Origin: a virus
IMG/VR virus record: IMGVR_UViG_3300002132_000024
Location: 1-64,000 of that record
Strand: one strand, 5' to 3'
DNA length: 64,000 bases
Shown: positions 9,918 through 44,262 of the stretch, piece by piece
Numbering within the stretch: the stretch's first letter is position 1
Layout of the letters: each line of letters opens with the position of its first letter
Notes under the pieces: generated by a model
Seen by the model: only the letters and a program-made list of their open reading frames with translations
Database searches by the model: none
Told to the model about the DNA's origin: nothing
Position numbers and translations under genes: made by a program

Positions 9918-9925
9918 AATAAATA
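9918..9925 (+). promoter_or_regulatory. T4-type late promoter (AATAAATA)
   Basis: AATAAATA lies 22 bases before the ATG at 9948. The predicted transcript starts near 9931 and carries AGGGG as ribosome site, so spacing is ideal for a late promoter of the fourth fibre gene. T4 late promoters are read by RNA polymerase carrying gp55-type sigma with the sliding clamp as activator. Confidence 0.65.
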
Positions 9926-9947: not shown

Positions 9948-11750
9948 ATGGCATATCAAGTAGATAAATTTAACGGAACATTCCTAGTATCAGTAGCGGA
10001 TGGCACTATTGATACTACAACAGATCTTAGATTTGTGGGTAAAAACTACGCCGGTTATGGCGAAGTACAGAACGAAAATTTCTTGCACTTACTAGAATCT
10101 TTTTCAAATACTACAGCACCACCCAAGGTTGTGACTGGTCAGATATGGTACGATTCTGCAAATCAAAAGCTAAAATTTTATAACGGTTCTAGATTTAAAC
10201 TAGCCGGCGGCGCTGAAGTTAGTGCTACTGCTCCAAGCGGATTAGCGTCAGGTGATTTTTGGTGGGATAGTTCTGCAAAACAGTTATATGCATGGAACGG
10301 TGTAGACTTTACTCTTGTTGGTCCAGTTTCGAGCCCGGATCTAGGCACATCGACGGTGAGCCCGGATACTGTAAAAGGTACAGTGTCGACCACAGTTGGC
10401 CCTCACACTATTTTAAAAATTATTGCAGATAGCAAAGTAATTGGTATCTTTAGCAAAACTGCATTTACACTTGATAATGCACAGAATACAATTGAAGACT
10501 TTTCAGTTATTAAGAAAGGGTTTACCCTTGCTAAATCTCAAACAGGTGTTTCTACTGATGATTACATCATGTGGGGCACAACACAAAATGCAATTCAACT
10601 AGGAGGTGTTGGCGCTGACCAGTTCTTGAGAAAGGGCGACAATGCGTTCACTGAAGAAGTATCGTTTGCAGATACGGGCATACAAATTGGTGACGGCAAC
10701 GACATACGAATCCGTATTGAAAATGGTGACGAAGCTATTTTCGAGAACCGATTAGGCAATTCGATTACATTTAGAATTTCTGTTGCAGAAACAACAGACG
10801 AGCGAGACATTGCAGTTATTACCTCTACAGGAGTAGTACCAGCAGATAACAATGCTTATACATTAGGATCGTCACTATCTAAGTGGAGCAACGTTTATTC
10901 TACTGTGTTTACTGGTAATCTAACAGGCAATGCTACTGGTACTACTACAGGTAGTCATTACGGTAATGTTTATTCGTCTGACAGTCAGATAATGATTGAC
11001 GGAACAACTAAGCAAATTGGGTATGCCGGAGCAAACATTGTTGGTACACTCACTGGTTCTGTGACAGGATCAGCAGCAACAGCAACAAACTCTGGTAAGT
11101 TAAACGACTTAGAACCGTCAGTGGCAGTTCCGGGGTCAGCAGTTGCTACGATTCCGGTGCGTGATGCTACTGGCAACATATATGCAACTCAATTTATTGG
11201 TATTGCTGACAAAGTAGATAGAACATTTATAGATAAAACTGATGCATTATCAGACCCAACGTGGAATGATGGTACAACGAGTACCAAATACAGAACGGCT
11301 AGACTAAGTGCAACTGCATATAGTATTGCTGCTAGAGATTCTAGTGGAAATATTACTGCTAATTTATTCAACGGAACTGCAACCGCAGCTCGCTATGCTG
11401 ACTTAGCAGAAAAATACACAACAGCAATTGAACTAGTGCCAGGTACAGCAGTGGCAGTATGTACGTGTGAAGAGCATGAAGTAGAGCCAGCAACTGCAAG
11501 TAATCATTGTATTGGTGTTGTTTCAACAAACCCAGCAATTATGATGAATAGTGATGCCGAAGGGCAATATATTGCACTTACAGGTCGTGTTCCTGTGCGT
11601 GTTAAAGGTGCTGTTAAAAAAGGTCAAGTTGTGTATGCTTGGATCGACGGCGTATGCACAACAGTAGCAACAACTGCAATGGTTGGTGTTGCATTAGAAT
11701 CAAACGCAGACGACGCTGAAAAGTTAGTTGAGTGTGTACTTAAAGTTTAA
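9948..11750 (+). CDS. Tail fibre paralogue 4 with distinct C-terminal domain
   Basis: A 600-residue fibre protein with the shared N-terminal domain (GKNYAGYGEVQNENFLHLLESF, GQIWYDS, GDFWWDS). After a shaft with SLSKWSNVYSTVF and several glycine-asparagine repeats, residues about 480-600 form a different C-terminal domain: RYADLAEKYTT, then VVSTNPAIMMNS, ALTGRVPVRVKG, and a Cys-containing end (CTCEEHE). This kind of ending (YADLAE...GVVSTNPA...GRVPV) is frequent in phage and prophage fibres and may be a trimerisation or self-processing domain; that is inference. It has its own late promoter, unlike paralogues 2 and 3. Confidence 0.8.
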   Translation: MAYQVDKFNGTFLVSVADGTIDTTTDLRFVGKNYAGYGEVQNENFLHLLESFSNTTAPPKVVTGQIWYDSANQKLKFYNGSRFKLAGGAEVSATAPSGLASGDFWWDSSAKQLYAWNGVDFTLVGPVSSPDLGTSTVSPDTVKGTVSTTVGPHTILKIIADSKVIGIFSKTAFTLDNAQNTIEDFSVIKKGFTLAKSQTGVSTDDYIMWGTTQNAIQLGGVGADQFLRKGDNAFTEEVSFADTGIQIGDGNDIRIRIENGDEAIFENRLGNSITFRISVAETTDERDIAVITSTGVVPADNNAYTLGSSLSKWSNVYSTVFTGNLTGNATGTTTGSHYGNVYSSDSQIMIDGTTKQIGYAGANIVGTLTGSVTGSAATATNSGKLNDLEPSVAVPGSAVATIPVRDATGNIYATQFIGIADKVDRTFIDKTDALSDPTWNDGTTSTKYRTARLSATAYSIAARDSSGNITANLFNGTATAARYADLAEKYTTAIELVPGTAVAVCTCEEHEVEPATASNHCIGVVSTNPAIMMNSDAEGQYIALTGRVPVRVKGAVKKGQVVYAWIDGVCTTVATTAMVGVALESNADDAEKLVECVLKV

Positions 11751-11759
11751 GGATAACAA

Positions 11760-12656
11760 ATGGCGTCTTCAGGATCTCAAATAACAGCAGCCGACTATAT
11801 TACTATTCAGGATAAAGCTCAGTCTTTGTTAGGAACAGGTACTGGCACCCGAGGTTATGGTCAAACCGTACAATCAGCTGACGTTTTTACAGGTAATAAT
11901 ATCACTAAAGCTCAATGGGATCTATTGAGATATGATGTCACTAGTATTCGATATCATCAAGACGGAGTTATGCCAGCTATTGTCACTGTTAATGTTGGAG
12001 ATCCAATAGGCTATGGCGGATCATCACCTAATAGCAACTATGACACTTTATTAGATCAGGCTATTGCAAACAGGTTTGTACTAGCAAATAATCAATCTAT
12101 TGTTGCAAATGCAGCATCTACTTCGTATTCGTCTACTTGGTCGTTAACAGCTACATCTGAGTTAACTGTGACATTTTCCACTCCTACTGAAGCTAGATAC
12201 TTTTTTAATAGTGGAGGCACTGTTAGGATTAATTCTATTATATCCGGGGGGTCGACAACTGCACAAGTCAATGCGTGGAAAACATTTTTATCTAGTGTAG
12301 GAACTAGAGCGTTTGGAGCTAATACTGATCCGGCTATTAACTATTATACACTTACTAACGCATATCAAACATATTATCAAAACTCATTGTCTACGCCTTA
12401 TTCTGCGAACAACTACGTACTAGAGGCTAAAACTGATGTTGCAGATAATTCATCTGGAACAGCAACAGTGTTGACTATAAAGATTACATTAAATGATAGC
12501 TATGTTGATCCACATATAGATCCCCCAGGCGATAGTGTAGACGGAACATTAACAGTTTCAGTTGCCGAAGTCAAAGCCGCTGGATCATTATTTCCTAGCG
12601 GAACGTTTGCTATAACTAGTCCTTCGTACTCACTTTCGAGTATTACAGCATCGTAA
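11760..12656 (+). CDS. Virion structural protein, paralogue A
   Basis: A 298-residue protein with AAGGA 5 bases before the ATG. It is a paralogue of the next gene: both have an N-terminal ITAADY/IKYTDY segment, GYGQT near residue 35, LRYD near 60, and a central ARYFFN-(S/A)-GG block near residue 140. These features and the Ser/Thr/Asn-rich beta composition fit a tail or fibre component that forms a homo- or hetero-oligomer with its neighbour. The enzymatic function, if any, is unknown. It lies at the end of the fibre array and is probably expressed with paralogue 4. Confidence 0.65.
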   Translation: MASSGSQITAADYITIQDKAQSLLGTGTGTRGYGQTVQSADVFTGNNITKAQWDLLRYDVTSIRYHQDGVMPAIVTVNVGDPIGYGGSSPNSNYDTLLDQAIANRFVLANNQSIVANAASTSYSSTWSLTATSELTVTFSTPTEARYFFNSGGTVRINSIISGGSTTAQVNAWKTFLSSVGTRAFGANTDPAINYYTLTNAYQTYYQNSLSTPYSANNYVLEAKTDVADNSSGTATVLTIKITLNDSYVDPHIDPPGDSVDGTLTVSVAEVKAAGSLFPSGTFAITSPSYSLSSITAS

Positions 12657-12692
12657 GATATTAAATAGAAACTCATATAGAAGAATATATTC

Positions 12693-13583
12693 ATGGCCGT
12701 TAACGACACAATTAAGTACACTGACTACAATAACATTAGAAATGCTGTCATTGAAGTACTCGGTGCAGGCTCAGCAACTTATGGGTATGGACAAACTCCG
12801 ATAAGTGCAAGTGTTGCTATAGGAAATAAAGTCACAGTCAACGAATGGAGTAATTTAAGATACGACATTTTAAATGCTTCATTGCATCAGAATGGTAGCT
12901 ATGCAACAGTTCCTAGTAAAACCGAAGGTCAAACAGTTGCATTTAATGCATCTACCGAACCAGTCACTTATTATAGTACGTTAGCAGCGACTCTTGCATC
13001 TAACAGATTTAATGTCGGATCTGGTCAATTTGGAGTTGCCACCGCCGTTCCAAAAACATTTACTAGTGCTTGGTCGGTGCAATTAAGGACAACAGTGACA
13101 GCTATTTGGGCAGATGCTAATGCTGCAAGATACTTCTTCAATGCAGGCGGCCAAATATTAATAAGTGCTGCTAGAGCTGGTGGAACTGCTACATCTCAAA
13201 ATACAAGTTGGTCGTCGCTATTAAGTTCTGCGGGCACACAAGGCATTGGCGGCAACAATCCAGGCGCAGGCACATCACCGACAGACGGTACTAATTGGTA
13301 TAGGACAGATAGTAATTATAGAACATTTTATTCAACCTCTGCCTCCAGCCCGTACGGATCAAACACATATTCTCTTTCAGCTAGATCAACTGCATCAAGC
13401 CTAGAAATTTTTGTTGATTTGCAAGATGGCCATACTGCTACGGGCGCTGGCCCAGATACTGTTGACGGTATACTAACAATATCAGCATCTTATAAATATC
13501 CAACTGGAACGTTGTTGCCTGCTTCGAGCACCTGGCTACAGTATGTTCCTACTTCGTTAACTGTAGCCAATATAGGCGGATAA
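12693..13583 (+). CDS. Virion structural protein, paralogue B
   Basis: A 296-residue paralogue of the preceding gene with the same order of blocks: YTDYNNIRNAV, GYGQTPISA, WSNLRYDIL, ARYFFNAGGQILISA. It also has a PYGSNTYSLSARS stretch that matches PYSANNYVLEAKT in paralogue A. The 36-base spacer before it contains TATTAAATA (12659-12667), a weak late-promoter-like element, and AGAAG before the ATG. The pair probably arose by tandem duplication and makes related subunits of a tail structure. Function beyond that is not visible. Confidence 0.65.
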   Translation: MAVNDTIKYTDYNNIRNAVIEVLGAGSATYGYGQTPISASVAIGNKVTVNEWSNLRYDILNASLHQNGSYATVPSKTEGQTVAFNASTEPVTYYSTLAATLASNRFNVGSGQFGVATAVPKTFTSAWSVQLRTTVTAIWADANAARYFFNAGGQILISAARAGGTATSQNTSWSSLLSSAGTQGIGGNNPGAGTSPTDGTNWYRTDSNYRTFYSTSASSPYGSNTYSLSARSTASSLEIFVDLQDGHTATGAGPDTVDGILTISASYKYPTGTLLPASSTWLQYVPTSLTVANIGG

Positions 13584-13606: not shown

Positions 13607-13614
13607 GCTAAATA
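13607..13614 (+). promoter_or_regulatory. T4-type late promoter (GCTAAATA)
   Basis: GCTAAATA precedes the ATG at 13642 by 27 bases. A start of transcription near 13620 gives a leader containing AAGGAG 7 bases before the ATG. CTAAATA is the variant reported for T4-like phages of aquatic bacteria. It appears to drive the whole sugar cassette down to 22.6 kb, because no other promoter was seen in that stretch. Confidence 0.6.
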
Positions 13615-13641: not shown

Positions 13642-13992
13642 ATGCAAGAGCAACTCAAACGAGCTCTGGAGTTTGCTAATTACAAGCAAACATTTTCAAT
13701 CCAACGTAAAACTCTTAAAGAAAAAGCAGAAGCTAGATTAACCTACGGGTTTAATGGCGGCTTGTTTCACATTGACCAAACTCTTTTAACATTTGTCGAA
13801 ATGTTGTGTAATAAAGGCCGCACTAGCGGCGTTGTACTGCTAGATGTAAATGATAATCCTATTCTTATAGAAGATGTAGAAGCGTTTAAAGATGAAGTGT
13901 TTAGTAGATATTTTGAAGCTACAAATGAATACTTCGAGCATTATCAAAAATTAAAGAAGAGTCGTTCTGTAGAGAAGATGCTAGAACAATGA
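13642..13992 (+). CDS. Conserved phage protein of unknown function
   Basis: A 116-residue soluble, charged protein with a strong ribosome site (AAGGAG). Recognisable blocks are LTFVEMLCNKGRTSGVVLLD and a C-terminal helix rich in Glu, Phe and Lys. It is the first gene after the late promoter at 13607 and overlaps the next glycosyltransferase gene by four bases (ATGA), so it belongs to that operon. I do not know its function; small proteins of this look occur beside fibre genes in T4-like phages, so an adaptor role is possible but unproven. Confidence 0.6.
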   Translation: MQEQLKRALEFANYKQTFSIQRKTLKEKAEARLTYGFNGGLFHIDQTLLTFVEMLCNKGRTSGVVLLDVNDNPILIEDVEAFKDEVFSRYFEATNEYFEHYQKLKKSRSVEKMLEQ

Positions 13993-14849
13993 CACGTGGA
14001 ATTTTAATCTATGCTCATAACAATCGAACAGTTGATTATGCGCTGATGGCTATTATATCAGGCGGCCTTGCAAAAAAACAGTTAATGGTACCTGCATCTT
14101 TAGTGACTGACCAATCGACAGTTGATTGGTTAGCTGAATCTAATATGTTAGACACAGCATCAGCTGTATTTGAAAACATCATAGTTGTAGATCGTCCACA
14201 AACAGACAATCAACGAAGATTACACGATGGTGAATCTAATATGGTTGTGCCGTTCATAAATTCAAACAGGGGATCAGCATGGGACCTAACTCCGTATGAT
14301 CGTACACTGTTAATTGACAGTGACTTTTTAATTTTTTCTAATAGACTAAGTGAATATTGGAATGTTGATGCTGACGTACTAATCGGCGAATCGATAAATG
14401 ATATATATGGTCAAGAACGATTAGGATATAACGATGTTTATATTTCAGAAGTTGGAGTAAAACTTTACTGGGCCACTACAGTTATGTTTAGTAAAACAAG
14501 TGACGCTAAGTTATTATTTGACACAGTAAATTTTGTTAAAGACCACTATCAGTACTATGCTGATATTTTTAGATTTGACAGCAGACAGTTTAGAAACGAT
14601 ATTGCATTTAGTGTAGCCAAACATATACTAGGTGGATTTGAAGAAGACGAAAATGGAATATTACCCCCTGTATTGTCTTTATTAGATAAGGATGTACTAC
14701 ATGAGGTTATTGGAGATCGCCTAACGGTGTTAGTTAGTTCCAGGTTAGGATCTGATTATTGTGCAGCAGCATTATCAGGAGTTGATGTTCATGTAATGAA
14801 TAAGCAAAGTATTATTCGTAATAAAGATAAATTACTGGAGCTAATATGA
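13989..14849 (+). CDS. Glycosyltransferase-like protein (GT-A/GT8 type)
   Basis: A 286-residue protein. After an N-terminal strand-turn (GILIYAHNNRTVDYALMA) comes the core metal-binding signature LLIDSDFLIF near residue 108, a DxD motif preceded by hydrophobic residues as in GT-A glycosyltransferases. The following gene is a divergent relative with the same order of elements. These enzymes transfer a sugar from a nucleotide donor; donor and acceptor cannot be read from sequence. The two coupled genes (ATGA overlap) suggest consecutive steps on one glycan. Confidence in the fold is moderate, in substrate nil. Confidence 0.6.
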   Translation: MTRGILIYAHNNRTVDYALMAIISGGLAKKQLMVPASLVTDQSTVDWLAESNMLDTASAVFENIIVVDRPQTDNQRRLHDGESNMVVPFINSNRGSAWDLTPYDRTLLIDSDFLIFSNRLSEYWNVDADVLIGESINDIYGQERLGYNDVYISEVGVKLYWATTVMFSKTSDAKLLFDTVNFVKDHYQYYADIFRFDSRQFRNDIAFSVAKHILGGFEEDENGILPPVLSLLDKDVLHEVIGDRLTVLVSSRLGSDYCAAALSGVDVHVMNKQSIIRNKDKLLELI

Positions 14850-15685
14850 ACTTTGGATATCTTTTAATTGTTGCCGAACACAAGTCTGTAGATTATCTAC
14901 AATTAGCGTATGCATTAGCATTAAGTATTAAGAATACACAAAGAGAAGGCTACGACAAAGTTGCATTGGTAATTGATAGCAAAGACAAGCTAGCTAAGTT
15001 AAAGAGTCCTTGGGTATTTGATCATGTTATTGAATGGGATCAAGAAACATTCTGGGATGGTCGTAGTTGGATGGATGAACTAACACCTTTTGAGCATACA
15101 GTATGTCTAGATGTTGATATGTTGTTTACAAGAGATTATAGCCACTGGGCAGAATATTTTATTGAGAATAGTGAATTGTACGTTGCTAACAAAGCGTACA
15201 CTTACAGGGGTGAGCTAATTACAGGCACTGATTATAGAAAAACATTCGTCAGAAACGAGTTGCCTAATCTATATTCATTTTATACATTTTTTAAGAAAGA
15301 TAGCAAGCTAGTAAAAGAGTTTTTTAATCTTGGCAGAGAAATTATTAAAAACCCTATTGAATTCTCTAATATGTTTTTGTCAGCAGGCAAGCCTAAAGTT
15401 ATAGGAACAGACGAAGCATTTAGTTTATCGGCAAAAATTCTAGATATTCAAGATGATATTGCATATCCTTTAGAATTTCCTAGAGTAGTACATATGAAAC
15501 CGCTAGTACAAAATTGGCCCTGGCCTGCCACTAAGTGGAGCGACCATGTTGGATTTTATTTTGGTAAGGGCGGACAATTGAAAATTGGAAATTATCAACA
15601 GCACGACATCGTTCATTATGTAGAAAAAGATAAAATTACAGATGAAGTTATAAGTGTGTTAGAGGAAATAGCATGGAAAAAATGA
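14846..15685 (+). CDS. Glycosyltransferase-like protein (GT-A type), relative of the preceding gene
   Basis: A 279-residue protein starting with a strand and an Asp-Tyr-Leu helix (NFGYLLIVAEHKSVDYLQLA) like its neighbour, and carrying HTVCLDVDMLF near residue 88, a DxD-type metal and nucleotide-sugar site. A second conserved block is GTDEAFSLSAKIL near residue 189, reminiscent of the acceptor or donor-side Asp-Glu of GT8-like enzymes, and HMKP near 217 resembles the C-terminal metal-ligand His of that family. It overlaps both neighbours, so translation is coupled within the cassette. The glycan target is unknown. Confidence 0.6.
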   Translation: MNFGYLLIVAEHKSVDYLQLAYALALSIKNTQREGYDKVALVIDSKDKLAKLKSPWVFDHVIEWDQETFWDGRSWMDELTPFEHTVCLDVDMLFTRDYSHWAEYFIENSELYVANKAYTYRGELITGTDYRKTFVRNELPNLYSFYTFFKKDSKLVKEFFNLGREIIKNPIEFSNMFLSAGKPKVIGTDEAFSLSAKILDIQDDIAYPLEFPRVVHMKPLVQNWPWPATKWSDHVGFYFGKGGQLKIGNYQQHDIVHYVEKDKITDEVISVLEEIAWKK

Positions 15686-16290
15686 TAGACTTTGACGAAT
15701 GGTTAGCTAATTATATTCCTGAGCCAACCAAGTATGTTGCAGTGTTTGATCCTGAAACAGGCGCAGTAAAATCAGTTGGCCCGGATCATGCTTTTACAAC
15801 AGAGAAAAATAAGATTTCTTTAGATACAGAAACTGCAGAATCTATTATCAACAGCGAAATTATGATTCATAAATGCTTTGTTGACATAGATTCGAGTAGT
15901 TTAGAAATAGCTGAAACAAAAAGCATTTTTAAAATTGATGATGTTTTACATAGAATCTCGTCAATTGAATTTTCGGATATTATAAAACCTGATGTTTATT
16001 TGGCATACTCATCAAAAAATAAAACTCTAAAAATTCAATTGTCAGCAGAACTAGGCGGAACTAAAAAAGTAAAAGGTGATATCAAAAAAAGAAAAATTGT
16101 TTGGGATGGTGACACTGAAATGAATTTTTTAATTACCGAATACAACGATCCGAACTTGATCTTTGAGATGTTTTCTGTTAAAATTAATGAACTAGTAGGT
16201 AAAACTAAAACATTAAAAGATATTGATTATGAAAATTTCAGTGTGTATACTAGACGCTTATTTAAAAATTATGTAATAGAGTATAAATGA
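15673..16290 (+). CDS. Hypothetical protein in the sugar cassette
   Basis: A 205-residue acidic protein with alternating Lys and Asp/Glu and no recognisable catalytic motif. It begins MEKMIDFDEWLANYIPEP, where the first helix is amphipathic, then has strands such as YVAVFDPETGAVKSVGP, a pattern found in small phage structural or adaptor proteins. It overlaps the glycosyltransferase genes on each side by a few bases and is therefore a regular member of the operon. It may hold the acceptor or present it to the transferases, but nothing in the sequence proves it. Confidence 0.5.
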   Translation: MEKMIDFDEWLANYIPEPTKYVAVFDPETGAVKSVGPDHAFTTEKNKISLDTETAESIINSEIMIHKCFVDIDSSSLEIAETKSIFKIDDVLHRISSIEFSDIIKPDVYLAYSSKNKTLKIQLSAELGGTKKVKGDIKKRKIVWDGDTEMNFLITEYNDPNLIFEMFSVKINELVGKTKTLKDIDYENFSVYTRRLFKNYVIEYK

Positions 16291-17180
16291 AAACAGTAGA
16301 ATTTGACGTTATATTTTTAAGTTATGATGAGCCTAATGCTGATCTGCATTATGCTGACTTGTGTAATAAAGTACCATGGGCAAAACGAGTTCACGGCGTC
16401 AAAGGCAGTGATCATGCACACAAAGCCGCAGCTGAACTCAGCGATACTGAATGGTTTATTACTGTTGACGCTGATAACATTGTTGATCCTGCTTTCTTTA
16501 ATCTAGAATTAGACATGAGCGATCCTAAGATACAAGTCTATGGATGGTGCGGCCGCAATACTATTAACGGATTGCGATATGGCAACGGCGGCGTGAAAAT
16601 CTGGAAGAAAGATTTTGTACTCGATATGCGTACACACGAAAATTCGGACAGTGATAGAGGTCAAGTAGACTTCTGTTGGGAAGATGGCTATAAAAACTTT
16701 CCTAGAGTTTATAGCGAAAGTATTATTACAGGAAGTCCGTTCCAAGCCTGGCGTGCTGGATTCCGTGAAGGTGTTAAAATGACTCTACTTGACGGAGTTA
16801 AAGTTCCACCTCAGGAAATTAAAGAGAGTATATGGTGGCACAATATCCATAGATTACGTATGTGGTCAACTGTAGGCATGCATGAAGAAAACGGAGTGTA
16901 TGCAATCCTTGGCGCCCGTATGGGAACGTACATGACTAATTGTACAGATTGGAATTACATTGACGTTAGAGACTTTGAAATATTAAGAGACATCTACGAA
17001 GAAAAAGTTAATCATACTAATCCCGAAGCTGATGCACGAGCGTTAGGCGTACAACTTAAACAGCAACTTGGACTAGACTGGCCTAACTTTGATTCACAAC
17101 AGAGCAAATATATTTTAGATCTGTATGACGAAACAATTAATCTAGGCTTAACGTATTATCGGATGCCCGATAATGTATGA
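16287..17180 (+). CDS. Glycosyltransferase-like protein, pair member 1
   Basis: A 297-residue protein with an N-terminal nucleotide-sugar fold: DVIFLSYDEPNAD at residues 7-19, then WFITVDADNIVDPAFF near 52-67 with a DAD metal motif. Directly after comes R-N-x-x-N-G-L-x-Y-G-N-G-G-V-K near residues 90-104, shared almost exactly with the next gene. Such a Gly-rich loop after DxD could bind the acceptor. Later features are FQAWRAGFREG and WWHNIHRLRMW. The shared core with the next protein shows a duplication. Substrates are unknown; the cassette context suggests decoration of a virion or surface glycan. Confidence 0.6.
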   Translation: MKTVEFDVIFLSYDEPNADLHYADLCNKVPWAKRVHGVKGSDHAHKAAAELSDTEWFITVDADNIVDPAFFNLELDMSDPKIQVYGWCGRNTINGLRYGNGGVKIWKKDFVLDMRTHENSDSDRGQVDFCWEDGYKNFPRVYSESIITGSPFQAWRAGFREGVKMTLLDGVKVPPQEIKESIWWHNIHRLRMWSTVGMHEENGVYAILGARMGTYMTNCTDWNYIDVRDFEILRDIYEEKVNHTNPEADARALGVQLKQQLGLDWPNFDSQQSKYILDLYDETINLGLTYYRMPDNV

Positions 17181-18225
17181 TATTTTTTATGTCGGAAAAG
17201 GATCAGTAGATAACGATGCTTGGGAAAGATTCAAACATCGGTTTCCTAATGCACAGAAACTTGAAAATATAAAAACATTTGAAGAAGTTAAATCTAAGGC
17301 ATTTACTAAATTTTTCTGGGTAGTGTGGGATTATGTTAATCTTAAAGAAGTTTTTAATTTAGATTATCGTATTCCTAAATGGGACGAAGAATACATTCAT
17401 GTTTTTAAAAATGGTGATTATTATGATGGTATTTGTATATTTCCTAAAGCCGCACGTATACTACAACGTGAATGGGATTATAGATTTTTTACTAAAAAGA
17501 AAGAAATAGAATATCAAGCCAGCATACCGCAGATGTCTGATGTTGTGTTTATATCCTATCACGAACCGTTTGCAGTTGAACGATTTGCAGATCTGGTTCC
17601 TAGATTAAGAGGAAATAAAATCTTCTGGATTAAAGATATTAAAGGTATACATCAAGCACACATTGAAGCAGCAAAGACAGCTACTACTGACATGTTTTAT
17701 GTAGTTGATGCAGATGCGATTATTGAGAATACGTTTAAGTTTGATCACTACATTCCGCACTATGACTTTAATGCAAAGCAAACAGTGCATGTATGGCAAA
17801 GTAGAAACCCGGTTAACGGTTTAGAATATGGTAATGGTGGAGTTAAACTATTACCTAGACAACTAACTATAGACATGGATTTATCTAAACCAGATATGAC
17901 TACAAGTATTAGTAAATGGTTTAGGCCTATGCAATCAGTATCTAACATAAACGGATTTAATACTGATCCGTTTAATACTTGGAAAAGTGCATTTAGAGAA
18001 TGTGCCAAGCTAGCTAGTCGTGTGATTGAGCGACAACAAGACGAAGAAACGCAGTATAGATTAAAAGTATGGTGTGAAGACTCAAGTGACGAAAATGCAA
18101 TCGATGGTGCCAATGCTGGAAAAGAATACGGTATTAAACACAAGACAGATTTAGAAACACTTAAAAAAATCAACGACTTTGCTTGGTTAAAGGAACAGTT
18201 CGATGGACGACTTAGAAAGAATTAA
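17173..18225 (+). CDS. Glycosyltransferase-like protein, pair member 2, with N-terminal extension
   Basis: A 350-residue paralogue of the preceding gene. Residues about 120-280 repeat its core: DVVFISYHEPFAV, DMFYVVDADAIIE, SRNPVNGLEYGNGGVKLLP, and FNTWKSAFRECAKLASR. The first 115 residues are extra and form a separate small domain (FYVGKGSVDND, FWVVWDYV), possibly a degenerate second copy of the same fold, since FWVVWDY lies where the DxD strand would be. It overlaps the gene before it by 8 bases and the radical SAM gene after it by 23 bases. A sugar-transfer role is inferred from the DxD core. Confidence 0.6.
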   Translation: MYDIFYVGKGSVDNDAWERFKHRFPNAQKLENIKTFEEVKSKAFTKFFWVVWDYVNLKEVFNLDYRIPKWDEEYIHVFKNGDYYDGICIFPKAARILQREWDYRFFTKKKEIEYQASIPQMSDVVFISYHEPFAVERFADLVPRLRGNKIFWIKDIKGIHQAHIEAAKTATTDMFYVVDADAIIENTFKFDHYIPHYDFNAKQTVHVWQSRNPVNGLEYGNGGVKLLPRQLTIDMDLSKPDMTTSISKWFRPMQSVSNINGFNTDPFNTWKSAFRECAKLASRVIERQQDEETQYRLKVWCEDSSDENAIDGANAGKEYGIKHKTDLETLKKINDFAWLKEQFDGRLRKN

Positions 18226-19576
18226 AAAGTTCATTCCTATTATGAATGAAGTTTCGCCTACGTTCTGTATGGCTAAATGGCATCACACGACAATTTACTT
18301 AGGTACAGGAGAAACACATAGTTGTTATCATCCCGCCCCGCACAAGATTCCTATGCAGGAAATCTTTATTGATCCTAGTGCGCTACATAATACTGAACAG
18401 AAAAAACTTGAACGACTAGAAATGCTCAACGGTGGTAAGCCCGCTGGTTGCAACTACTGCTGGAAAATCGAAGCAATGGGCGATAGCTACGTTAGTGATC
18501 GCAAGGAACGCAATAGTACAATTTATACTCCAGAAAGATTTGAACAAATTCGAGACGGTGACTGGGATCAGAATATAAACCCGCAATACATTGAAGTTAG
18601 CTTTGGCAACGAATGTAATTTTAAATGCGGGTACTGCCATCCTAAGCACAGTAGCTCGTACTACAAAGAGATTAAAGATCACGGCCCCTACGACATGGTT
18701 AAGAATCACCGCAACGACATTGACTGGTTTAAGATTTATGAAGAAGATAACAACCCTTATGTTGATGCCTGGTGGCGTTGGTGGCCCGAAGTAAAGAAAA
18801 CTTTAACCATCCTTCGTATCACCGGAGGCGAACCGTTGCTTCAAAAATCAACATGGAAGCTATTAGAAGATCTTGAACAGAATCCTCTGCCTAACTTAGA
18901 ACTTAATATCAATACTAATTTCGGAGTTAAGCCAGTACTAGTAGAACGATTGGTTGAAAAGGTAAACAATCTAGTTAACAACGGAAAGATCAAAGACTTT
19001 AAAGTTTTCACGAGCATTGATACATGGGGTCCAGCAGCAGAGTACATACGTACTGGCCTAGACTTGAATGTATGGGAACAGAATTTAGATACATATCTAA
19101 CAAGAACATCTCTACCTATTACATTCATGATAACGTTTAACATACTATCAGTGACAAACTTTCAAAGTCTGCTAGAAAAGATTTTAGAATGGCGTGAGAA
19201 GTACAATGGATCTACGCAAAGCAAATGGCAGCGTGTACGCTTTGATACACCGTTCCTAAAAGAACCGTTGCAATATGATATGAATATATTGCCTAAAGAG
19301 GAGTTTATGCCATACATGCAAAGTCACCTAGACTTCATTCTAGCCAATTTAGACGATAAAAACCGCTTTAAATTCAACGACTTAGAGTATGCTAAATTTG
19401 AAAGAGTCGTTAAATACATGGAATCAGCTATCTATGCCCCAGAGAAGATTAAAGAAGGCAAACTAGACTTCTTTAATTGGTTCACTGAACATGACCGCCG
19501 TCGTAATACCGATTTCTCTAAGACTTTTCCAAGACTAGCAAATTTCTTTGAAAGCTGCAACAGTGAGATGCTATGA
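18203..19576 (+). CDS. Radical SAM protein (twitch/SPASM-like)
   Basis: A 457-residue radical SAM enzyme. The cluster-binding motif ECNFKCGYC (CX3CX2C) lies near residues 138-146, followed by the SAM-binding RITGGEPLL near 206-214. A second Cys pair before it (CNYCWKIEAMGD near 89) and Cys near the N-terminus suggest extra metal binding, as in twitch-domain radical SAM proteins. The reaction is unknown. Embedded among glycosyltransferases and SGNH-like genes, it may modify a sugar or peptide side chain before or after glycosylation. Its reductant could be the ferredoxin encoded at 57.3-57.6 kb; that link is inference. Confidence 0.85.
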   Translation: MDDLERIKKFIPIMNEVSPTFCMAKWHHTTIYLGTGETHSCYHPAPHKIPMQEIFIDPSALHNTEQKKLERLEMLNGGKPAGCNYCWKIEAMGDSYVSDRKERNSTIYTPERFEQIRDGDWDQNINPQYIEVSFGNECNFKCGYCHPKHSSSYYKEIKDHGPYDMVKNHRNDIDWFKIYEEDNNPYVDAWWRWWPEVKKTLTILRITGGEPLLQKSTWKLLEDLEQNPLPNLELNINTNFGVKPVLVERLVEKVNNLVNNGKIKDFKVFTSIDTWGPAAEYIRTGLDLNVWEQNLDTYLTRTSLPITFMITFNILSVTNFQSLLEKILEWREKYNGSTQSKWQRVRFDTPFLKEPLQYDMNILPKEEFMPYMQSHLDFILANLDDKNRFKFNDLEYAKFERVVKYMESAIYAPEKIKEGKLDFFNWFTEHDRRRNTDFSKTFPRLANFFESCNSEML

Positions 19577-20865
19577 TTTTTCTATTTCAAAATAAAAAAG
19601 AATTAACAAATTTTTCTAATTGTGATGATGTTAATTCGTCTGGAATCAATCGATTTACTGCTAGTCCTCTTGTATCAACTTTAAGATATAGTTTTTCAAA
19701 GTCTGCAACATTTGATTCATTCAATAACAGAACAAAGTACAAAAGTTATATTGTTCCATCTGGAGTGACGCATTCGCCCTGGGATTGGGCAGGCCATGCA
19801 GAACTAGAAAAAAATTATATGACGTCTAATAGAAATAGTGTATTCTTTTATATAGATCAAGAACTACTAACTGATTTACAGTCAAAGAAAGCATACTTAC
19901 TTTTAGATCAAAGTCACGAAGGGTACCATGAAGAATGGTTGTTTTATTGGTTTCATTATTGTTGTACAGTTTATAAAATTCCTGTTAGTCAGATAATATA
20001 TGTCACTGGAAACTTGTCAGTAGAAACACAATATGCAGATTGGTGCAAACGTAATAATACATCAGAACGTATGTGTGTTATACCCCATATACAGTTTGAA
20101 AGATTTACCTATGATTCGGTCACACAGCAACTAAAGATATTGCCAACAGTTAGTGAACATATACGTTATAAGACAGCTAATGAGTCAACCTTATTAACAT
20201 ATAACTGTTTTCAAAAACGTGCAAGGCCTCACAGGATCTGGTTATTTCATGCATTATGGAAAAACAATTTACTTTCAGATGGTATTAATAGTATGAATAG
20301 TTTTTTTAAAAATAATTCATACTATGAAGAAAAATCAATAACTGATGAAGATTACGAGCAAATGGTTAAGTTGTTGCCTATGTTTCCTAGATCTAATATG
20401 GATGATACATTAAAACAAGATTTCAAAGGCACATCAGCCGACTCGTTTGTAAGAGATTTATATCATATAGAAACACGTAATTCTTGGGTGAGTATAGTAA
20501 GTGAAGCATCTTTTGCAGAACGCACATGCTTTATAAGTGAGAAAACATTTAAACCGATCGCTGCTAGACACCCTTTTATATTATACGGTAATAAACATAG
20601 TCTGAGATATATTCGAGAACTAGGATACAAAACTTTTGATGGTGTTATTGACGAATCATATGACGAGTTAGATTCTTGGGAACGATTAGACGCTATCATT
20701 AAACAGATACAAATAATAAAAAATATGTCTCACAGTAAAAAAATAGAATGGTTCGAATCGATGAGAGCTATCTTAGATTACAACTTTGAAGTTTTAAAAA
20801 ATAATTCAATAAAGCAGCCTAGCTCAGTTTCAAAGGTACGAGAATATGTATTACAACCAAATTAA
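19573..20865 (+). CDS. Putative glycosyltransferase-like protein
   Basis: A 430-residue protein overlapping the radical SAM gene by 4 bases. The most telling block is in the C-terminal half: SFAERTCFISEKTFKPIAARHPFILYG near residues 312-338. A motif of the form S-E-K-x-x-K-P-(I/L)-x-x-x-x-P-F-(I/V) is typical of the nucleotide-sugar binding half of GT10-like fucosyltransferases and related phage proteins. The N-terminal half has LLLDQSHEGYHEEWLFYWF and no clear motif. The C-terminal block therefore supports a GT-B-type sugar transferase, with no evidence on the sugar. Confidence 0.5.
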   Translation: MIFLFQNKKELTNFSNCDDVNSSGINRFTASPLVSTLRYSFSKSATFDSFNNRTKYKSYIVPSGVTHSPWDWAGHAELEKNYMTSNRNSVFFYIDQELLTDLQSKKAYLLLDQSHEGYHEEWLFYWFHYCCTVYKIPVSQIIYVTGNLSVETQYADWCKRNNTSERMCVIPHIQFERFTYDSVTQQLKILPTVSEHIRYKTANESTLLTYNCFQKRARPHRIWLFHALWKNNLLSDGINSMNSFFKNNSYYEEKSITDEDYEQMVKLLPMFPRSNMDDTLKQDFKGTSADSFVRDLYHIETRNSWVSIVSEASFAERTCFISEKTFKPIAARHPFILYGNKHSLRYIRELGYKTFDGVIDESYDELDSWERLDAIIKQIQIIKNMSHSKKIEWFESMRAILDYNFEVLKNNSIKQPSSVSKVREYVLQPN

Positions 20866-21862
20866 AGAAATAAATCAAAGTTTAAAAAGAACTAAGAAAG
20901 CTATTATAAGTCTCGGGTGTTCGTTTGTCGAAGGTCAAGGCGCAATTGATCAGGAATTATATGATAGGTTAGAGTGGACAATGGAGCGTACAGGAGTTCC
21001 TATGGAACCTAATCTTAGTCGTAGCGATATGATTGATATTGTAAAACAATATCCTGAACTGTATATAGAACATAATAAAATAAATTGGACACACATGCAA
21101 CACAACAATGCATTTGTGAATGTTCTTTGTAAAAAATATTTTGAAGGAGAATATACCCCAATTAATCTAGGTAGAGCAGGTAGGGGCAATCGAGCAACTA
21201 TTAAAAGTTTATATACATGGCCGCAGTTAAATTGGGGAGATATAGAAGAATTGATGGTGTTGTATGTCCCCAGCGGCCAAGAGAGGTTTGATTTAGTATC
21301 GGATCAATTTAATGATTTTAATCAGTTTCAATGTATGTGGCCTCACTGGAAAGATCAACTAGAGAATACACCTCGTAGGATGTTATGGCAAGGATACGGA
21401 GAGGCAGTTTACTCTACTAAATCAGCTGCAATAGAACAGCTATTGCATGTCCAAGAATTAATCAACTGGTGTAAAGTACATAACGCTAAACTTGTGATAA
21501 CTCCAGCATTTGATAAAACGTATACTCGTGATTATTTCAAAGCATTTTTAAAACAAGGCTTTGAACGTGATATAGATCAAACTCTTATTTCTAACAAGGC
21601 CGATGTATCGAAAGATCAAGTTAAACACTTAGAAATGATGGTAGATCAATGGCCATGGGATAGTATGTTTCTTCCACAACAGTGTCCTACATTTATAGAC
21701 CTGTGTTTAAAACAAGAGAATATATCTAACGTTGGGTTCTGGGATTTTAATGGAGTAGGAACAGAAAATAATTGGATAACAGTATGTTGTCACCCTAGTG
21801 CAAAAGCTCACGACTTATTTGCTAGCGAATTGCACAAGCACATCAAGGATATACACAAATGA
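20846..21862 (+). CDS. SGNH/GDSL hydrolase-like protein 1
   Basis: A 338-residue protein overlapping the previous gene by 20 bases. Residues 19-31 read AIISLGCSFVEGQ, where the Ser after G-C would be the block I nucleophile of an SGNH fold (the usual G-D-S replaced by G-C-S). Residues near 108-113 (GRAGRG) fit block II Gly, and a C-terminal CCHPSAKAHDLFASEL near 312-327 supplies a His in an H-P-(S/N) context, as expected for block V. Such proteins often add or remove acetyl groups on glycans. With the next gene it forms a two-gene SGNH pair in the sugar cassette. Confidence 0.55.
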   Translation: MYYNQIKEINQSLKRTKKAIISLGCSFVEGQGAIDQELYDRLEWTMERTGVPMEPNLSRSDMIDIVKQYPELYIEHNKINWTHMQHNNAFVNVLCKKYFEGEYTPINLGRAGRGNRATIKSLYTWPQLNWGDIEELMVLYVPSGQERFDLVSDQFNDFNQFQCMWPHWKDQLENTPRRMLWQGYGEAVYSTKSAAIEQLLHVQELINWCKVHNAKLVITPAFDKTYTRDYFKAFLKQGFERDIDQTLISNKADVSKDQVKHLEMMVDQWPWDSMFLPQQCPTFIDLCLKQENISNVGFWDFNGVGTENNWITVCCHPSAKAHDLFASELHKHIKDIHK

Positions 21863-22617
21863 ACTCTAGATCGCACATGCCAGGCTACTTTTCCGAAGAT
21901 AATCTGTTTAAAGTAAATTGGTTAACACTTGGCAACAATCGATTCTCTGGAACAGATGATGAAGCTGCTCTAGCTAGAAACTTGATCAGTCAACCAGACA
22001 CATGGCATTATAGAACTAAAAAGATTGAATATAAAGTGAATTCTCTTGGATATCGAACTAGAGAGTTTGCTGATATCTATTGGAAAGAGTCTATTGTTAT
22101 TATAGGATGTTCAATGGTAGCAGGAGTTGGCGTTGCTGAAGACGAAACTATAAGTCACTACTTAGAAAAATTATCAGGTCGTCCTGTTATCAACTTAGGA
22201 GTACCTGCGGCAGGTATTGATTTTGCATTGTATAATAACTTTCTTCTTAAGAAAAATTATCCAACACCATGGGCTGTTGTAAATGTATTTTCTAATATCA
22301 ATAGGCTAGTCACATTCAATGAAACACATATGGAGTTTAAAGGATTGTGGTCAGAAAGTGATGACTATTGGAAAGGCCACATGAAAACTATTCATAATTC
22401 TCTGATAAAGGGAATATTGGATTCTCAGCAAATACAGTATATGTGGAAAGATGCTAAATCTTTTAATGCGTCTTGGTTTGACGATACTGTACAATATTGC
22501 GAGGTTGACAAACTATATTTTACAAATACAGCAAGAGATTTAATGCATTGTGGTGCTGAATCTAACAACCACAATGCAGAAATCATTTATTCAAAATTAA
22601 AAAATAGTATCTGTTGA
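21859..22617 (+). CDS. SGNH/GDSL hydrolase-like protein 2
   Basis: A 252-residue protein with an SGNH-like block I at residues about 76-88: IVIIGCSMVAGVGV (G-C-S again in place of G-D-S), and block II NLGVPAAGID near 111-120. The region before it (VNSLGYRTREF) is a common lead-in to phage-encoded SGNH-like domains. A C-terminal ARDLMHCGAESNNHNAEII contains His residues that could complete the triad. It starts inside the end of the previous gene (ATGA) and its 3' end runs 21 bases into the convergent gene at 22597. Likely last gene of the + strand operon. Confidence 0.55.
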   Translation: MNSRSHMPGYFSEDNLFKVNWLTLGNNRFSGTDDEAALARNLISQPDTWHYRTKKIEYKVNSLGYRTREFADIYWKESIVIIGCSMVAGVGVAEDETISHYLEKLSGRPVINLGVPAAGIDFALYNNFLLKKNYPTPWAVVNVFSNINRLVTFNETHMEFKGLWSESDDYWKGHMKTIHNSLIKGILDSQQIQYMWKDAKSFNASWFDDTVQYCEVDKLYFTNTARDLMHCGAESNNHNAEIIYSKLKNSIC

Positions 22618-26516: not shown

Positions 26517-26953
26517 GTGTTCTTCTTTTTAATTTCGTTAATGTCAAGTGAACCAGTCTTAATCGGACCACCAAAGTCGCCGTCAACAACTACGTTAGCA
26601 CAGAGTTCACGGAACCAACGATCTACAATTTCTTCCTCTAGATCGCCTTCTTCGCCGTATCCTTCTTGCCTTAATTGTAGCACAAACTGTGGGTTCCAGT
26701 CAAGTTCAAAGAAGCCGTTTCTAACATTTTCTTTGTTTACGTGAGTATTAACAACACCAACCCACGCTTCTTTTTTACGTGTAGCACGAGCTTTTGGATC
26801 TAGCTTTGCTAGTTCTTCTGCTTCCTTAGCACGATCCGCCTCCGCTGTTGATAGTTTTGCTCTTTCAGTCGCTTCAGCCGCTATTACTATTGAACGTTCT
26901 ACTTCTGCTCGAACTTTATCAATACCAAATAATTTTTCAATCCACTTACGCAT
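26513..26953 (-). CDS. Conserved phage protein with N-terminal coiled coil
   Basis: The start is at 26953, sharing one base with the queE stop (TAATG). The product is 146 residues. Residues 1-65 are a long Ala/Glu/Arg helix (VERSIVIAAEATERAKLS...), likely coiled coil with a basic end. Residues 75-146 form a compact acidic domain (VNTHVNKENVRNGFFELDWNPQFV, then REEGYGEEG-like stretch). The position between queE and the flap exonuclease suggests a DNA-metabolism context, but no motif gives the function. Confidence 0.55.
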   Translation of the reverse strand: MRKWIEKLFGIDKVRAEVERSIVIAAEATERAKLSTAEADRAKEAEELAKLDPKARATRKKEAWVGVVNTHVNKENVRNGFFELDWNPQFVLQLRQEGYGEEGDLEEEIVDRWFRELCANVVVDGDFGGPIKTGSLDINEIKKKNT

Positions 26954-27798
26954 TAAGTACCCCACTCGTTTTTAAATAAAGGCACTTGCAGTCTATCACT
27001 ATATCGCAAACCATGCTTCATTGCTAACAATGCTACATTCTTATTGTTTAATGCATAGACGCTTTCTACACCACCCACTGGCATTAAGTAAACGTGTCCT
27101 TTAAATCCTGCTGCACGATATTCCTCAACAGCACGTTCTGCATCAGCAAAGTCTTGTTCTGTAGCAATAACAAACTTCAAGTATGCTGTACCTACTTCTT
27201 CGTACTCACAAACAACTTCTGGAAGGATCGCTTCTTCCCACTTCTCGCCACTACATGGAAGTTTAGCACTTACACTAAATGTGACTTCATGTCCAACTGT
27301 ACTGTTCCACTTAGCTAACCAGCCTTTAAATTCCGGAGTAAGTTTCTGAGTACCATTTGTTTCAAATGTAATCTCTTTCAAGTCACGCATCTTAGGATTG
27401 TTTAGTAAATCTGGATAAGCACGTTGCCATCCTAGTAAAGGCTCACCGCCTGTAATAACCAGGTGCTCGTCCTTCCAGTGATCTTGCGGAAGAATTTCCA
27501 TAATACGATCTACAATAGCTTCACTAGTAAGCATTGGACTTAAATGTTTAAAACGAGGATCCCAACTAGCATAGCTGTCACATCCTGTACTTACTAGTGG
27601 CAGTTCTTTATAATCTTTAAAGTCTGCAACACGAGATACTATTGCCTCAAGTTCGTTTGAAAGTTCTCCTCGAGGCATGCCGAATCCAGCACATTTAAAA
27701 TTGCATCCGAAGACACGTAGGAAAACAGAAGGAACGCCCATGTAGCGTCCTTCACCTTGAATGCTGTAGAACAGCTCTGCTATTTTTAATTTGCTCAT
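26953..27798 (-). CDS. queE: 7-carboxy-7-deazaguanine synthase-like radical SAM enzyme (QueE)
   Basis: A 281-residue QueE-type enzyme that ring-contracts 6-carboxy-tetrahydropterin to 7-carboxy-7-deazaguanine (CDG). Visible are the QueE start signature ELFYSIQGEGRYMGVPSVFLR (residues 8-28), GCNFKC (Cys32, Cys36), VITGGEPLL and FETNGT. The third cluster ligand is not at the usual CX2C distance; the next Cys is Cys73 in TGCDSYASW, after an insert. I start at 27798 because the sigma70 promoter at 27805-27834 sits immediately upstream and the QueE family begins with this motif. With folE, queD and the DpdA-like gene it predicts a 7-deazaguanine pathway. Confidence 0.85.
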   Translation of the reverse strand: MSKLKIAELFYSIQGEGRYMGVPSVFLRVFGCNFKCAGFGMPRGELSNELEAIVSRVADFKDYKELPLVSTGCDSYASWDPRFKHLSPMLTSEAIVDRIMEILPQDHWKDEHLVITGGEPLLGWQRAYPDLLNNPKMRDLKEITFETNGTQKLTPEFKGWLAKWNSTVGHEVTFSVSAKLPCSGEKWEEAILPEVVCEYEEVGTAYLKFVIATEQDFADAERAVEEYRAAGFKGHVYLMPVGGVESVYALNNKNVALLAMKHGLRYSDRLQVPLFKNEWGT

Positions 27799-27804
27799 GT
27801 TATT

Positions 27805-27834
27805 ATTATACACTCTTTTCTGAATCGTTGTCAA
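27805..27834 (-). promoter_or_regulatory. Sigma70-type promoter for queE (TTGACA-18-TATAAT)
   Basis: Perfect -35 TTGACA (27829-27834) and -10 TATAAT (27805-27810) with an 18-base spacer. Six bases separate the -10 from the queE ATG at 27798, so the transcript is predicted to start at or next to the start codon. It lies inside the 3' end of the preceding gene. Confidence 0.7.
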
Positions 27835-28006
27835 CCTTTTTTGACAATATAAATGTGCCGTCTTTACCTTCATCCCAAATTAGGGTATCTCCAAAATCCC
27901 AACCTACTTGTGCTAGCAGGTCTGGAGGAAATGGAAGAACCAAATCACCGGTATCTGGATCTTCCTCGAGTTTTATTGTCCATGTTCGCTGAGCATTATC
28001 TTGCAT
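27806..28006 (-). CDS. Small AbrB/MazE-like phage protein
   Basis: A 66-residue acidic protein with the pattern WTIKLEEDPDTGDLVLPFPPDLL, QVGWDFGDTLIWDEGKDGTFIL. The order (strand, L-P-x-P-x-x-L-L, G-W-x-x-G-D-x-L-x-W) resembles the swapped-hairpin AbrB/SpoVT fold of small DNA-binding or antitoxin proteins. It is short and lacks a toxin partner nearby. A regulatory role is possible; I base it only on the pattern. It overlaps the gene before it by 34 bases. Confidence 0.5.
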   Translation of the reverse strand: MQDNAQRTWTIKLEEDPDTGDLVLPFPPDLLAQVGWDFGDTLIWDEGKDGTFILSKKVDNDSEKSV

Positions 28007-30167: not shown

Positions 30168-30582
30168 AGATATAATACACCTCTTCTTCTAAATAACGTT
30201 TTAGTTCTTTGTCAGTAGGTTCTACATTATAGTTGTTCTTAAAAAAGATTTCATAACTATCAGAACCATACTTTCCAATGCCATACAATATTGTAGCATC
30301 ATTTCTGTCCCATGTCAAGAAGTCTTGGGTCATTCTAAACAAACGAGTATAGCGAACATTCACCATTCCTAACGGGGCGATAATACTCTTAACAAACTCT
30401 TCGTCAGCATCTAGCAGATTTTGTGGCATAGGAAACCAATATAAGAATTCGGGCAGTGTTAGTTTCACTGCCTTCCTTCCTGTTTGATTTAACATAATCA
30501 CACCAACCATGTGTTGCCATGCGCCGTCGATCTGCTGTTGTACCATTAGATTATCTTTAAGCGGCGCAAACCAAGTACTCAT
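30157..30582 (-). CDS. MBD4-like HhH-GPD DNA glycosylase
   Basis: A 141-residue protein resembling the glycosylase domain of MBD4. Matching blocks, in order, are a helical start with MLNQTGRKAV (MBD4 has a FLNRTSG-like segment), a central APLGMVNVRYTRLFRM (compare PLGLYDLRAKTIVKF), the helix-hairpin-helix YGIGKYGSDSY (residues 100-110), and VEPTDKELKRY at 120-130 where Asp124 fits the catalytic Asp. HhH-GPD enzymes remove damaged or mismatched bases such as U or T opposite G. No [4Fe-4S] Cys motif is present, as in MBD4. It sits between folE and a cupin gene. Confidence 0.7.
   Translation of the reverse strand: MSTWFAPLKDNLMVQQQIDGAWQHMVGVIMLNQTGRKAVKLTLPEFLYWFPMPQNLLDADEEFVKSIIAPLGMVNVRYTRLFRMTQDFLTWDRNDATILYGIGKYGSDSYEIFFKNNYNVEPTDKELKRYLEEEVYYIYAA
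30290..30318 (-). promoter_or_regulatory. Sigma70-type promoter inside the glycosylase gene (TTGACA-17-TACAAT)
   Basis: TTGACA at 30313-30318 and TACAAT at 30290-30295, spacer 17. It would drive the cupin gene and those after it. It is inside a coding sequence, so support comes from sequence fit alone. Confidence 0.45.
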
Positions 30583-31325
30583 CTTGAGGCAAACTCCTGT
30601 TGTAGTTTAATGTTGTCAAAGAACTCTTTCTTTGTGCTTTGATCTGTATTGAACGCACCTTTCAATACTGTAGTTTGTGTTAGACTACTATGCGCCATAA
30701 TTCCACGATTCTCACAACATCCGTGTACTGCTTGAATGTAAACTGCTACATTTTCACTATCAGTTGCCTTACTGATCTCACGAGCAATGTCGTTGCAGAG
30801 TTCTTCTTGTAGTGTACCTCGTCTAGCACACCACTGTGCAATGCGAGTATATTTGCTAAGACCAATTAACTTTTGAGCAGCAATAATTCCAATGTAGGCA
30901 ACCCCAGCGACAGGCTGATGGTGATGACTACACATACTACGCAACTCACTACGTACAACCAACATGCCTTCATATCTGTCCTCGGTGTCATTTGGAAACG
31001 CTGTTGCGTCTGGTGCAGATTCATAACGCCCTGCCATAATTTCGTTAAAGTACATCTTGGCAAGTCTACGTGCAGTACCTTGCGAGTTAGGATCATTCTC
31101 ACGATCGATTAACAGTGCATCAAGTACGCCTTCAAAGGCGACGGTAGCTTCGTCAACAAGTCTATCAAAATCTGTAAAATGTACATACTCGCTGATGTTG
31201 TCGCCTGCCCAGAAACGCTTTTTATCACGTTTCATTCTAGCACGAATGTTATCGCCTAGATATCCTTCACTATAGCCACCATCACCTGCCATAGCGTCTA
31301 GTCCTGTTTCTTTTTTATCTGTCAT
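30579..31325 (-). CDS. folE: GTP cyclohydrolase I (FolE)
   Basis: A 248-residue GTP cyclohydrolase I, the first step from GTP to dihydroneopterin triphosphate, used for folate or for 7-deazaguanine. The N-terminal 50 residues are an extra tail. The catalytic core has GTARRLAKMYFNEI near 83-96, the zinc ligand SMCSHHHQP (Cys132, His134/135), IGLSKYTRI near 154, and AVHGCCENRGIMAHSS (second Cys, 203/204). The Zn and pterin-binding residues look intact. With queD, queE and the DpdA-like gene it supplies the pterin precursor. It is coupled to its neighbours by 4-base overlaps. Confidence 0.9.
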   Translation of the reverse strand: MTDKKETGLDAMAGDGGYSEGYLGDNIRARMKRDKKRFWAGDNISEYVHFTDFDRLVDEATVAFEGVLDALLIDRENDPNSQGTARRLAKMYFNEIMAGRYESAPDATAFPNDTEDRYEGMLVVRSELRSMCSHHHQPVAGVAYIGIIAAQKLIGLSKYTRIAQWCARRGTLQEELCNDIAREISKATDSENVAVYIQAVHGCCENRGIMAHSSLTQTTVLKGAFNTDQSTKKEFFDNIKLQQEFASR

Positions 31326-44062: not shown

Positions 44063-44262
44063 ACAGGCTTCTCTCCTGTTAGATATGGCTTGCTAAACCA
44101 CAACTTAAACCATTCGGGCGTTCCGGGCTTGATGTTGTGCTTTTTCATTAACTCGCCTTTTTCGTTTCCAGTGACGCTAATATTACTACCGCCGTAGGGC
44201 TGTAGACCTTTAAACTCAGTAATGCCTGCTAGGCGTCTAATATCAGCAAGTTCGTCTATCAT
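44059..44262 (-). CDS. Small protein with IRRLAG leader
   Basis: A 67-residue protein. It begins MIDELADIRRLAGITEFKG, where the (D/E)-L-x-x-I-R-R-L-A-G-(I/L) pattern is typical of leaders of virion proteins in T4-like aquatic phages. The rest is a short folded region (ELMKKHNIKPGTPEWFKLWFS). It is coupled by 4-base overlaps to its neighbours. It may be a small head component; function is not shown. Confidence 0.55.
   Translation of the reverse strand: MIDELADIRRLAGITEFKGLQPYGGSNISVTGNEKGELMKKHNIKPGTPEWFKLWFSKPYLTGEKPV

Follow-up and report, generated by a model that had tools for sequence, protein, structure and literature searches.

What does a row of glycosyltransferase-like genes with a radical S-adenosylmethionine (SAM) enzyme among them do directly behind the fibre genes of a T4-like phage? 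The question is raised by a 64,000-nucleotide stretch of DNA (the window) belonging to the 74,782-base virus record IMGVR_UViG_3300002132_000024 of IMG/VR. Here, tail-fibre genes and genes for virion structural proteins form a block, which is followed at positions 13642-22617 by a cassette of ten plus-strand genes, c1 to c10 (the initial annotation counted nine, although its own list sums to ten). These genes may form a late operon that glycosylates virion proteins, with the fibre-type proteins next to it as the likeliest targets, an answer that we hold tentatively, with slightly less than even confidence. It is supported indirectly by a promoter motif of the kind found before the fibre genes F2 and F4, by the position of the cassette, by the lack of membrane segments in its products and by the match of one predicted fold to a viral capsid glycosyltransferase.

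The physical layout is that of a tightly packed unit. All junctions between c1 and c10 are overlapping, with 4 to 23 nt each, and the only intergenic gap of the cassette lies before c1, where 58 nt separate the end of F4 (13583) from the start of c1 (13642); both the joining by overlaps and the start right behind the fibre genes had been described correctly before. Because the identical gene order is found in dozens of independent IMG/VR contigs, the ten genes are not a chance set of open reading frames. None of the ten proteins contains a membrane-spanning segment according to hydropathy, which means that neither a flippase nor a membrane-anchored transferase is among them.

The gap before c1 harbors a TAAATA motif, which footprinting retrieved at about the same distance from c1 in 48 of 48 sequences (window and relatives), even though the flanks of the gap differ. 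The same motif is located upstream of F2 in 25 of 26 loci and upstream of F4 in 32 of 36, but was not found before F3 (0 of 33), c2 (0 of 51), c3 (0 of 62), c4 (0 of 70), c5 (0 of 75) or c7 (0 of 75) and only once before c6 (1 of 78). Since the motif precedes c1, F2 and F4 and, apart from the single c6 locus, none of the genes F3 and c2 to c7, the genes of the cassette are very probably transcribed together, from a promoter of the type that two fibre genes also have. The late promoter of T4 is TATAAATA, and the likeness of the motif to it suggests a late timing of expression. One late promoter had also been proposed in the initial annotation, and the footprint before c1 agrees with this, the timing being read from the type of motif. 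An exact copy of the T4 consensus at 13491 was rejected as the cassette promoter in favor of CTAAATA at 13608, as it lies inside F4 and is not conserved. Sites of the sigma-70 type did not exceed the frequency seen in shuffled sequence.

The search for the same cassette in relatives, suggested at the outset, was productive: dozens of uncultivated phages in IMG/VR have c1 to c7 in conserved order, with protein identities of approximately 43 to 88%. The cassette consists of a conserved core, c1 to c7, the order of which is kept wherever a contig reaches, and a variable tail, c8 to c10, which is replaced in most loci examined. The replacements comprise c8 paralogues, SGNH-like proteins, an NAD-dependent sugar epimerase, a UDP-glucose/GDP-mannose dehydrogenase, a B12-radical SAM protein, a 2-oxoglutarate oxygenase and extra NF033640-type radical SAM genes, as many as four radical SAM genes standing side by side. 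Double NF033640-type fusions of approximately 820 amino acids are encoded by single genes in three loci (L062, 11364-13814; L073, 11364-13817; L056, 11349-13814).

Approximately 500 relatives of c7 and at least 597 of c5 were found in IMG/VR. Each of the 37 c5 loci that extend 4.5 kb or more downstream contains a c7-like gene; 31 of these genes are more than 50% identical to c7 and six are divergent. In overlapping contig sets, orthologous c7 proteins share 78 to 86% identity, DNA polymerases 84 to 91% and ClpA proteins 77 to 83%. Judged by these values, c7 is conserved about as well as DNA polymerase or ClpA, which suggests a core function and not a transient accessory gene. In three loci (L128, L131 and L135), c5 is accompanied by divergent c7-like genes instead of the c7 orthologue. 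Two of these copies (L128 and L131, 39 to 48% identity) coexist with a polymerase that is still 84% identical, so that c7 is replaceable.

The presence of a radical SAM enzyme, already recognized in the initial annotation, was confirmed. The c7 protein matches NCBIfam NF033640 over profile positions 1-398 of 398 (E=2.1e-96, 323.5 bits with a cut-off of 170), and on the strength of this match it is certainly a member of that radical SAM family. The cysteines of the CxxxCxxC motif (C138, C142 and C145) as well as four N-terminal cysteines (C22, C41, C83 and C86) are invariant in 17 of 17 orthologues. The protein falls into a longer branch of the family (approximately 455 amino acids) together with chromosomal genes of Bacteriovoracaceae, separate from the extra copies of 390 to 410 amino acids in relatives of the phage. 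Its nearest cellular relatives, 38 to 41% identical, are encoded in three bacterial metagenome-assembled genomes (MAGs) among radical SAM/SPASM genes. A c5 profile gave no match in these three MAGs in a search run without a positive control. In Bacteriovoracaceae and related MAGs (L159-L161), several NF033640 and other radical SAM/SPASM genes are located beside the rplU/obgE region. The window also encodes a 7Fe ferredoxin (57286-57666, minus strand; E=7.6e-43 to the solved ferredoxin I). A role as dedicated electron donor of c7 was considered but not supported, since the near-identical contig G008 was the only one of 13 related records, most of them fragments, in which it turned up; the gene may have been acquired recently and may hint at the host.

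Four of the roughly five glycosyltransferase-like proteins announced in the initial annotation were supported, namely c2, c3, c5 and c6; c8 matched no glycosyltransferase family. The c2 and c3 proteins are homologous to each other, and each contains an invariant DxD motif. Their joint profile matched glycogenin, a protein-glycosylating enzyme, with E=0.005. A search of the phage's own record with PF01501 returned nothing for c2 and c3, and in a test against PF01501 or a solved GT8 enzyme one of 16 members matched (E=0.013); going by the glycogenin match, both are likely, though not certainly, GT8-like. The AlphaFold2 model of c5 is of modest confidence (predicted local distance difference test, pLDDT, 61). 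Its top Foldseek match in the PDB is 2p72, a glycosyltransferase for the major capsid of Paramecium bursaria chlorella virus 1 (PBCV-1; E=5.5e-4, probability 1.00, TM-scores 0.25/0.35), followed mostly by GT-A enzymes (GtrB, ArnC and mannosyltransferases). Profile searches for c5 and c6 matched no PDB sequence. The c6 protein is homologous to c5 (hhalign 99.9%), and a DxD-type acidic motif is invariant in both (D61-A-D63 in c5, D179-x-D181 in c6). The median identity of c5 among relatives is 81%. In different relatives, c6 carries an N-terminal repeat in 0 to approximately 4 copies, with protein lengths of 221 to 669 amino acids. All four are probable glycosyltransferases, on weaker evidence than that for the operon structure, the promoter motif and the family of c7.

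Among 50,697 isolated phages, neither the whole cassette (megablast) nor c1, c3, c5 and c8 (tblastn) found a match at the limits used, and c7 gave only weak partial tblastn matches at E<=10. The isolates closest in DNA polymerase are Sinorhizobium phage Phosso (PV764938, 51%) and Agrobacterium phage Atu_ph07 (MF403008, 46%), and we take the lineage to be T4-superfamily phages distantly related to these jumbo phages. In both isolates, a radical SAM cassette occupies the same slot, following an F2-like fibre gene. It comprises a cupin, three or four radical SAM genes (the fourth being annotated shorter in Atu_ph07) and, between the radical SAM genes, a protein of 296 to 306 amino acids with a terminal CHxSCHxSCH tail, which by its sequence looks like the tail of a radical SAM substrate. 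No other phage of the collection was found to encode this Cys-tailed protein; BLAST gave no support to a suspected homology of the Phosso protein to F3 or F4. In contrast to the window, the two cassettes encode no recognized glycosyltransferase but the Cys-tailed protein and the cupin instead, and the radical SAM proteins of both, which are partly of the SPASM type, show hardly any similarity to c7 (best E=0.007). By sequence they are not orthologues of c7, and the likeness is one of position and kind. The virion proteome of Atu_ph07 has already been analysed once by mass spectrometry (PMC6102473).

A radical SAM enzyme inside a glycan cassette is not as uncommon as had been assumed. T4-like pelagimyophages possess host-recognition islands, located between VrlC and gp14, that contain tail fibres, several glycosyltransferases, most often of family GT8, and inserted radical SAM cassettes (PMC7029224), one marine T4-like environmental genome contains 12 radical SAM genes (PMC5332604), and relatives of the window's phage carry as many as four one after another. 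The island in the window fits the pelagimyophage type, being fibre-adjacent in a T4-like phage and combining probable glycosyltransferases with radical SAM. It differs in that the pelagimyophage cluster is described as hypervariable and non-syntenic, whereas here c1 to c7 form a syntenic core and mainly c8 to c10 vary. In this division into conserved core and variable tailoring the lineage resembles the capsid glycosylation of chloroviruses (PMC7826918), in which virus-encoded glycosyltransferases, as in PBCV-1, build a glycan core conserved across all members (PMC7826918, PMC5408694). The similarity of c5 to the PBCV-1 enzyme lies at the level of the fold and of a predicted model. PBCV-1 differs, moreover, in being a virus of algae, and we know of no radical SAM enzyme in its capsid glycosylation pathway. 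Islands beside fibre genes that combine glycosyltransferases with radical SAM cassettes have already been published for pelagimyophages (PMC7029224); new are the core/variable division, the promoter footprint that the cassette shares with fibre genes and the cassette in the corresponding position of cultured jumbo phages.

If the cassette decorates the virion, it would be expressed late in infection together with the fibre genes. The c2, c3, c5 and c6 proteins, as soluble cytosolic glycosyltransferases, would furnish a phage protein with a conserved core glycan while virions are being assembled, and c7 would contribute one invariant radical step. The outer glycan would be tailored by c8 to c10, with c9 and c10 probably moving or removing acyl groups, and as these genes are variable, the final surface would differ between phages. 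Altered adsorption or masking of the virion would be the likely use. Of the candidate acceptors, F3 had no family match in the search that assigned F2 to PHROG tail fibre families, and F4 is the most variable neighbour (38 to 51% identity in relatives). The late expression stated and the virion decoration suggested in the initial annotation have gained the indirect support listed at the beginning. Several observations weigh against decoration: the GT8 link of c2 and c3 is weak, the c5 model combines a modest pLDDT with low TM-scores, the window's cassette contains no recognized nucleotide-sugar synthesis gene, and among those proteins flanking the cellular c7 relatives that were scanned no recognized glycosyltransferase was found. 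If decoration is true nevertheless, widespread uncultivated phages equip their own particles with a conserved glycan core and swappable additions, a radical SAM enzyme is devoted to virion decoration and NF033640-type enzymes have a first function.

The glycans could also be destined for the host envelope, where an altered O-antigen or capsule would keep sister phages from adsorbing or let the progeny escape debris. The authors of the pelagimyophage study interpreted comparable islands in this way (PMC7029224), a further point against virion decoration. Variable tailoring genes with SGNH-type acyl enzymes would fit a change of serotype, and the sugar epimerase and dehydrogenase of relatives also favor this reading. 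We nonetheless consider it unlikely, for a late-type promoter as in the fibre genes leaves little time, c1 to c10 include no membrane protein, flippase or polyprenol-phosphate transferase, and a highly conserved core is unexpected with a variable host surface as target. T4-like phages glucosylate their DNA, and glycosyltransferases decorating modified genome bases would be conceivable, as the window's phage has QueE- and FolE-like genes, which hint at modified bases. The location of the cassette among fibre genes and behind a late-type promoter, away from the replication genes, and a set of several transferases and SGNH proteins that exceeds the needs of base glycosylation make this hardly credible. 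The minus strand of the window encodes a QueE-like radical SAM protein (26953-27873) and a GTP cyclohydrolase I (30579-31325), possibly a 7-deazaguanine pathway for DNA.

Within or beside virion decoration, the role of c7 can be read in several ways, and as both alternatives for it are versions of such a role, the confidences given here overlap. One is an unusual sugar, proposed in the initial annotation, made by deoxygenation, epimerisation or oxidation of a nucleotide-sugar or the growing glycan and then attached by the glycosyltransferases. The position of c7 inside the cassette favors the sugar side, as do the variable sugar enzymes of relatives; some twitch-domain radical SAM enzymes (BtrN, MoaA) act on small molecules. 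By the flanking proteins scanned, the cellular relatives of c7 reside outside recognized sugar loci, and these as well as the counterparts in cultured phages stand beside radical SAM genes and not beside a recognized glycosyltransferase, for which reason we regard the unusual sugar as somewhat unlikely and a protein acceptor as slightly more likely than a nucleotide-sugar. Alternatively, c7 might act separately from the glycosyltransferases and modify a protein of the fibres or of another part of the virion, in which case the operon would bundle two maturation reactions. The same-slot radical SAM genes of Phosso and Atu_ph07, beside the Cys-tailed protein, and the cellular neighbourhood of c7 speak for this. 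Since, however, no CxxxC-type substrate tail was found in F3 and F4 of this lineage, the Phosso and Atu_ph07 enzymes are not orthologues and c7 lies between the glycosyltransferase-like c6 and the tailoring genes and accompanies c5 in 37 of 37 loci, we rate it as quite improbable. A radical modification of a fibre protein by c7 that serves as or accompanies the glycan anchor appears a shade more doubtful still; it would amount to a conserved, phage-encoded pathway in which radical SAM enzyme and glycosyltransferases mature a virion structural protein, and of which the cultured Sinorhizobium and Agrobacterium jumbo phages would have radical SAM-only versions. With these cultured phages, part of the question is testable now.

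Table 1. Features of the cassette, its fibre-type neighbours and the positional counterpart in cultured phages (window coordinates unless a locus is named; aa, amino acids).
Feature	Position	Strand	Description	Basis
ATAAATA	9919..9925	+	late-type motif before F2	TAAATA 28 nt before F2 ATG
F2	9948..11750	+	fibre-type virion protein, 600 aa; adjacent candidate target, outside cassette proper	PHROG tail fibre families
F3	11760..12656	+	fibre-like protein, 298 aa; candidate acceptor	syntenic in relatives
TTAAATA	12661..12667	+	late-type motif before F4	TAAATA 31 nt before F4 ATG
F4	12693..13583	+	fibre-like protein, 296 aa; candidate acceptor	syntenic
CTAAATA	13608..13614	+	late-type promoter motif of the cassette	TAAATA 33 nt before c1 ATG
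c1	13642..13992	+	116 aa, length conserved	relatives
c2	13989..14849	+	probable GT8-like glycosyltransferase, 286 aa	c3 homologue; invariant D110/D112; weak glycogenin match
c3	14846..15685	+	probable GT8-like glycosyltransferase, 279 aa	invariant D89/D91; joint c2+c3 profile
c4	15673..16290	+	205 aa, predicted mainly beta-strand	AlphaFold2 pLDDT 82
c5	16287..17180	+	probable GT-A glycosyltransferase, 297 aa, highly conserved	fold match; D61/D63 invariant
c6	17173..18225	+	c5-like GT-A domain with variable N-terminal repeats, 350 aa	hhalign to c5
c7	18203..19576	+	twitch-domain radical SAM enzyme (NF033640), 457 aa	profile above cut-off; cluster cysteines invariant
c8	19573..20865	+	variable module, 430 aa, many paralogues in relatives	relatives' loci
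c9	20846..21862	+	SGNH-like hydrolase or acyltransferase, 338 aa, variable module	SGNH residues
c10	21859..22617	+	weakly SGNH-like, 252 aa, variable module	GDSL families
Cys-tailed protein	L162 21679-22599 (Phosso); L163 22449-23339 (Atu_ph07)		ends in DYCHTSCHASCHSSRSRR or DFCHSSCHASCHNSRSRR	

The two unknowns of the initial annotation correspond to c1 and c4; a fold search with c4 found no solved relative at E<=0.001 and matched uncharacterised viral proteins only. An assignment of c8 as a GT10-type fucosyltransferase was rejected, as PF00852 gave no match at E<=10; the null result of c8 for glycosyltransferase families was obtained with a set of 30 members. Of the two SGNH-like proteins reported earlier, c9 is well supported by its conserved residues: in 19 sequences, including c10 and two of its relatives, S26, G109 and H316 are invariant and N107 is retained in at least 90%, with weak matches of c9 to GDSL chains (E=0.6-0.9). 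The case for c10 is weaker, its matches to GDSL families (E=3e-4) remaining below the cut-off, with the Ser and His columns retained. Elsewhere on the minus strand, the window encodes a 558-amino-acid protein with a cytidylyltransferase-like N-terminal domain (44259-45935) and a peptide deformylase (50533-51027).

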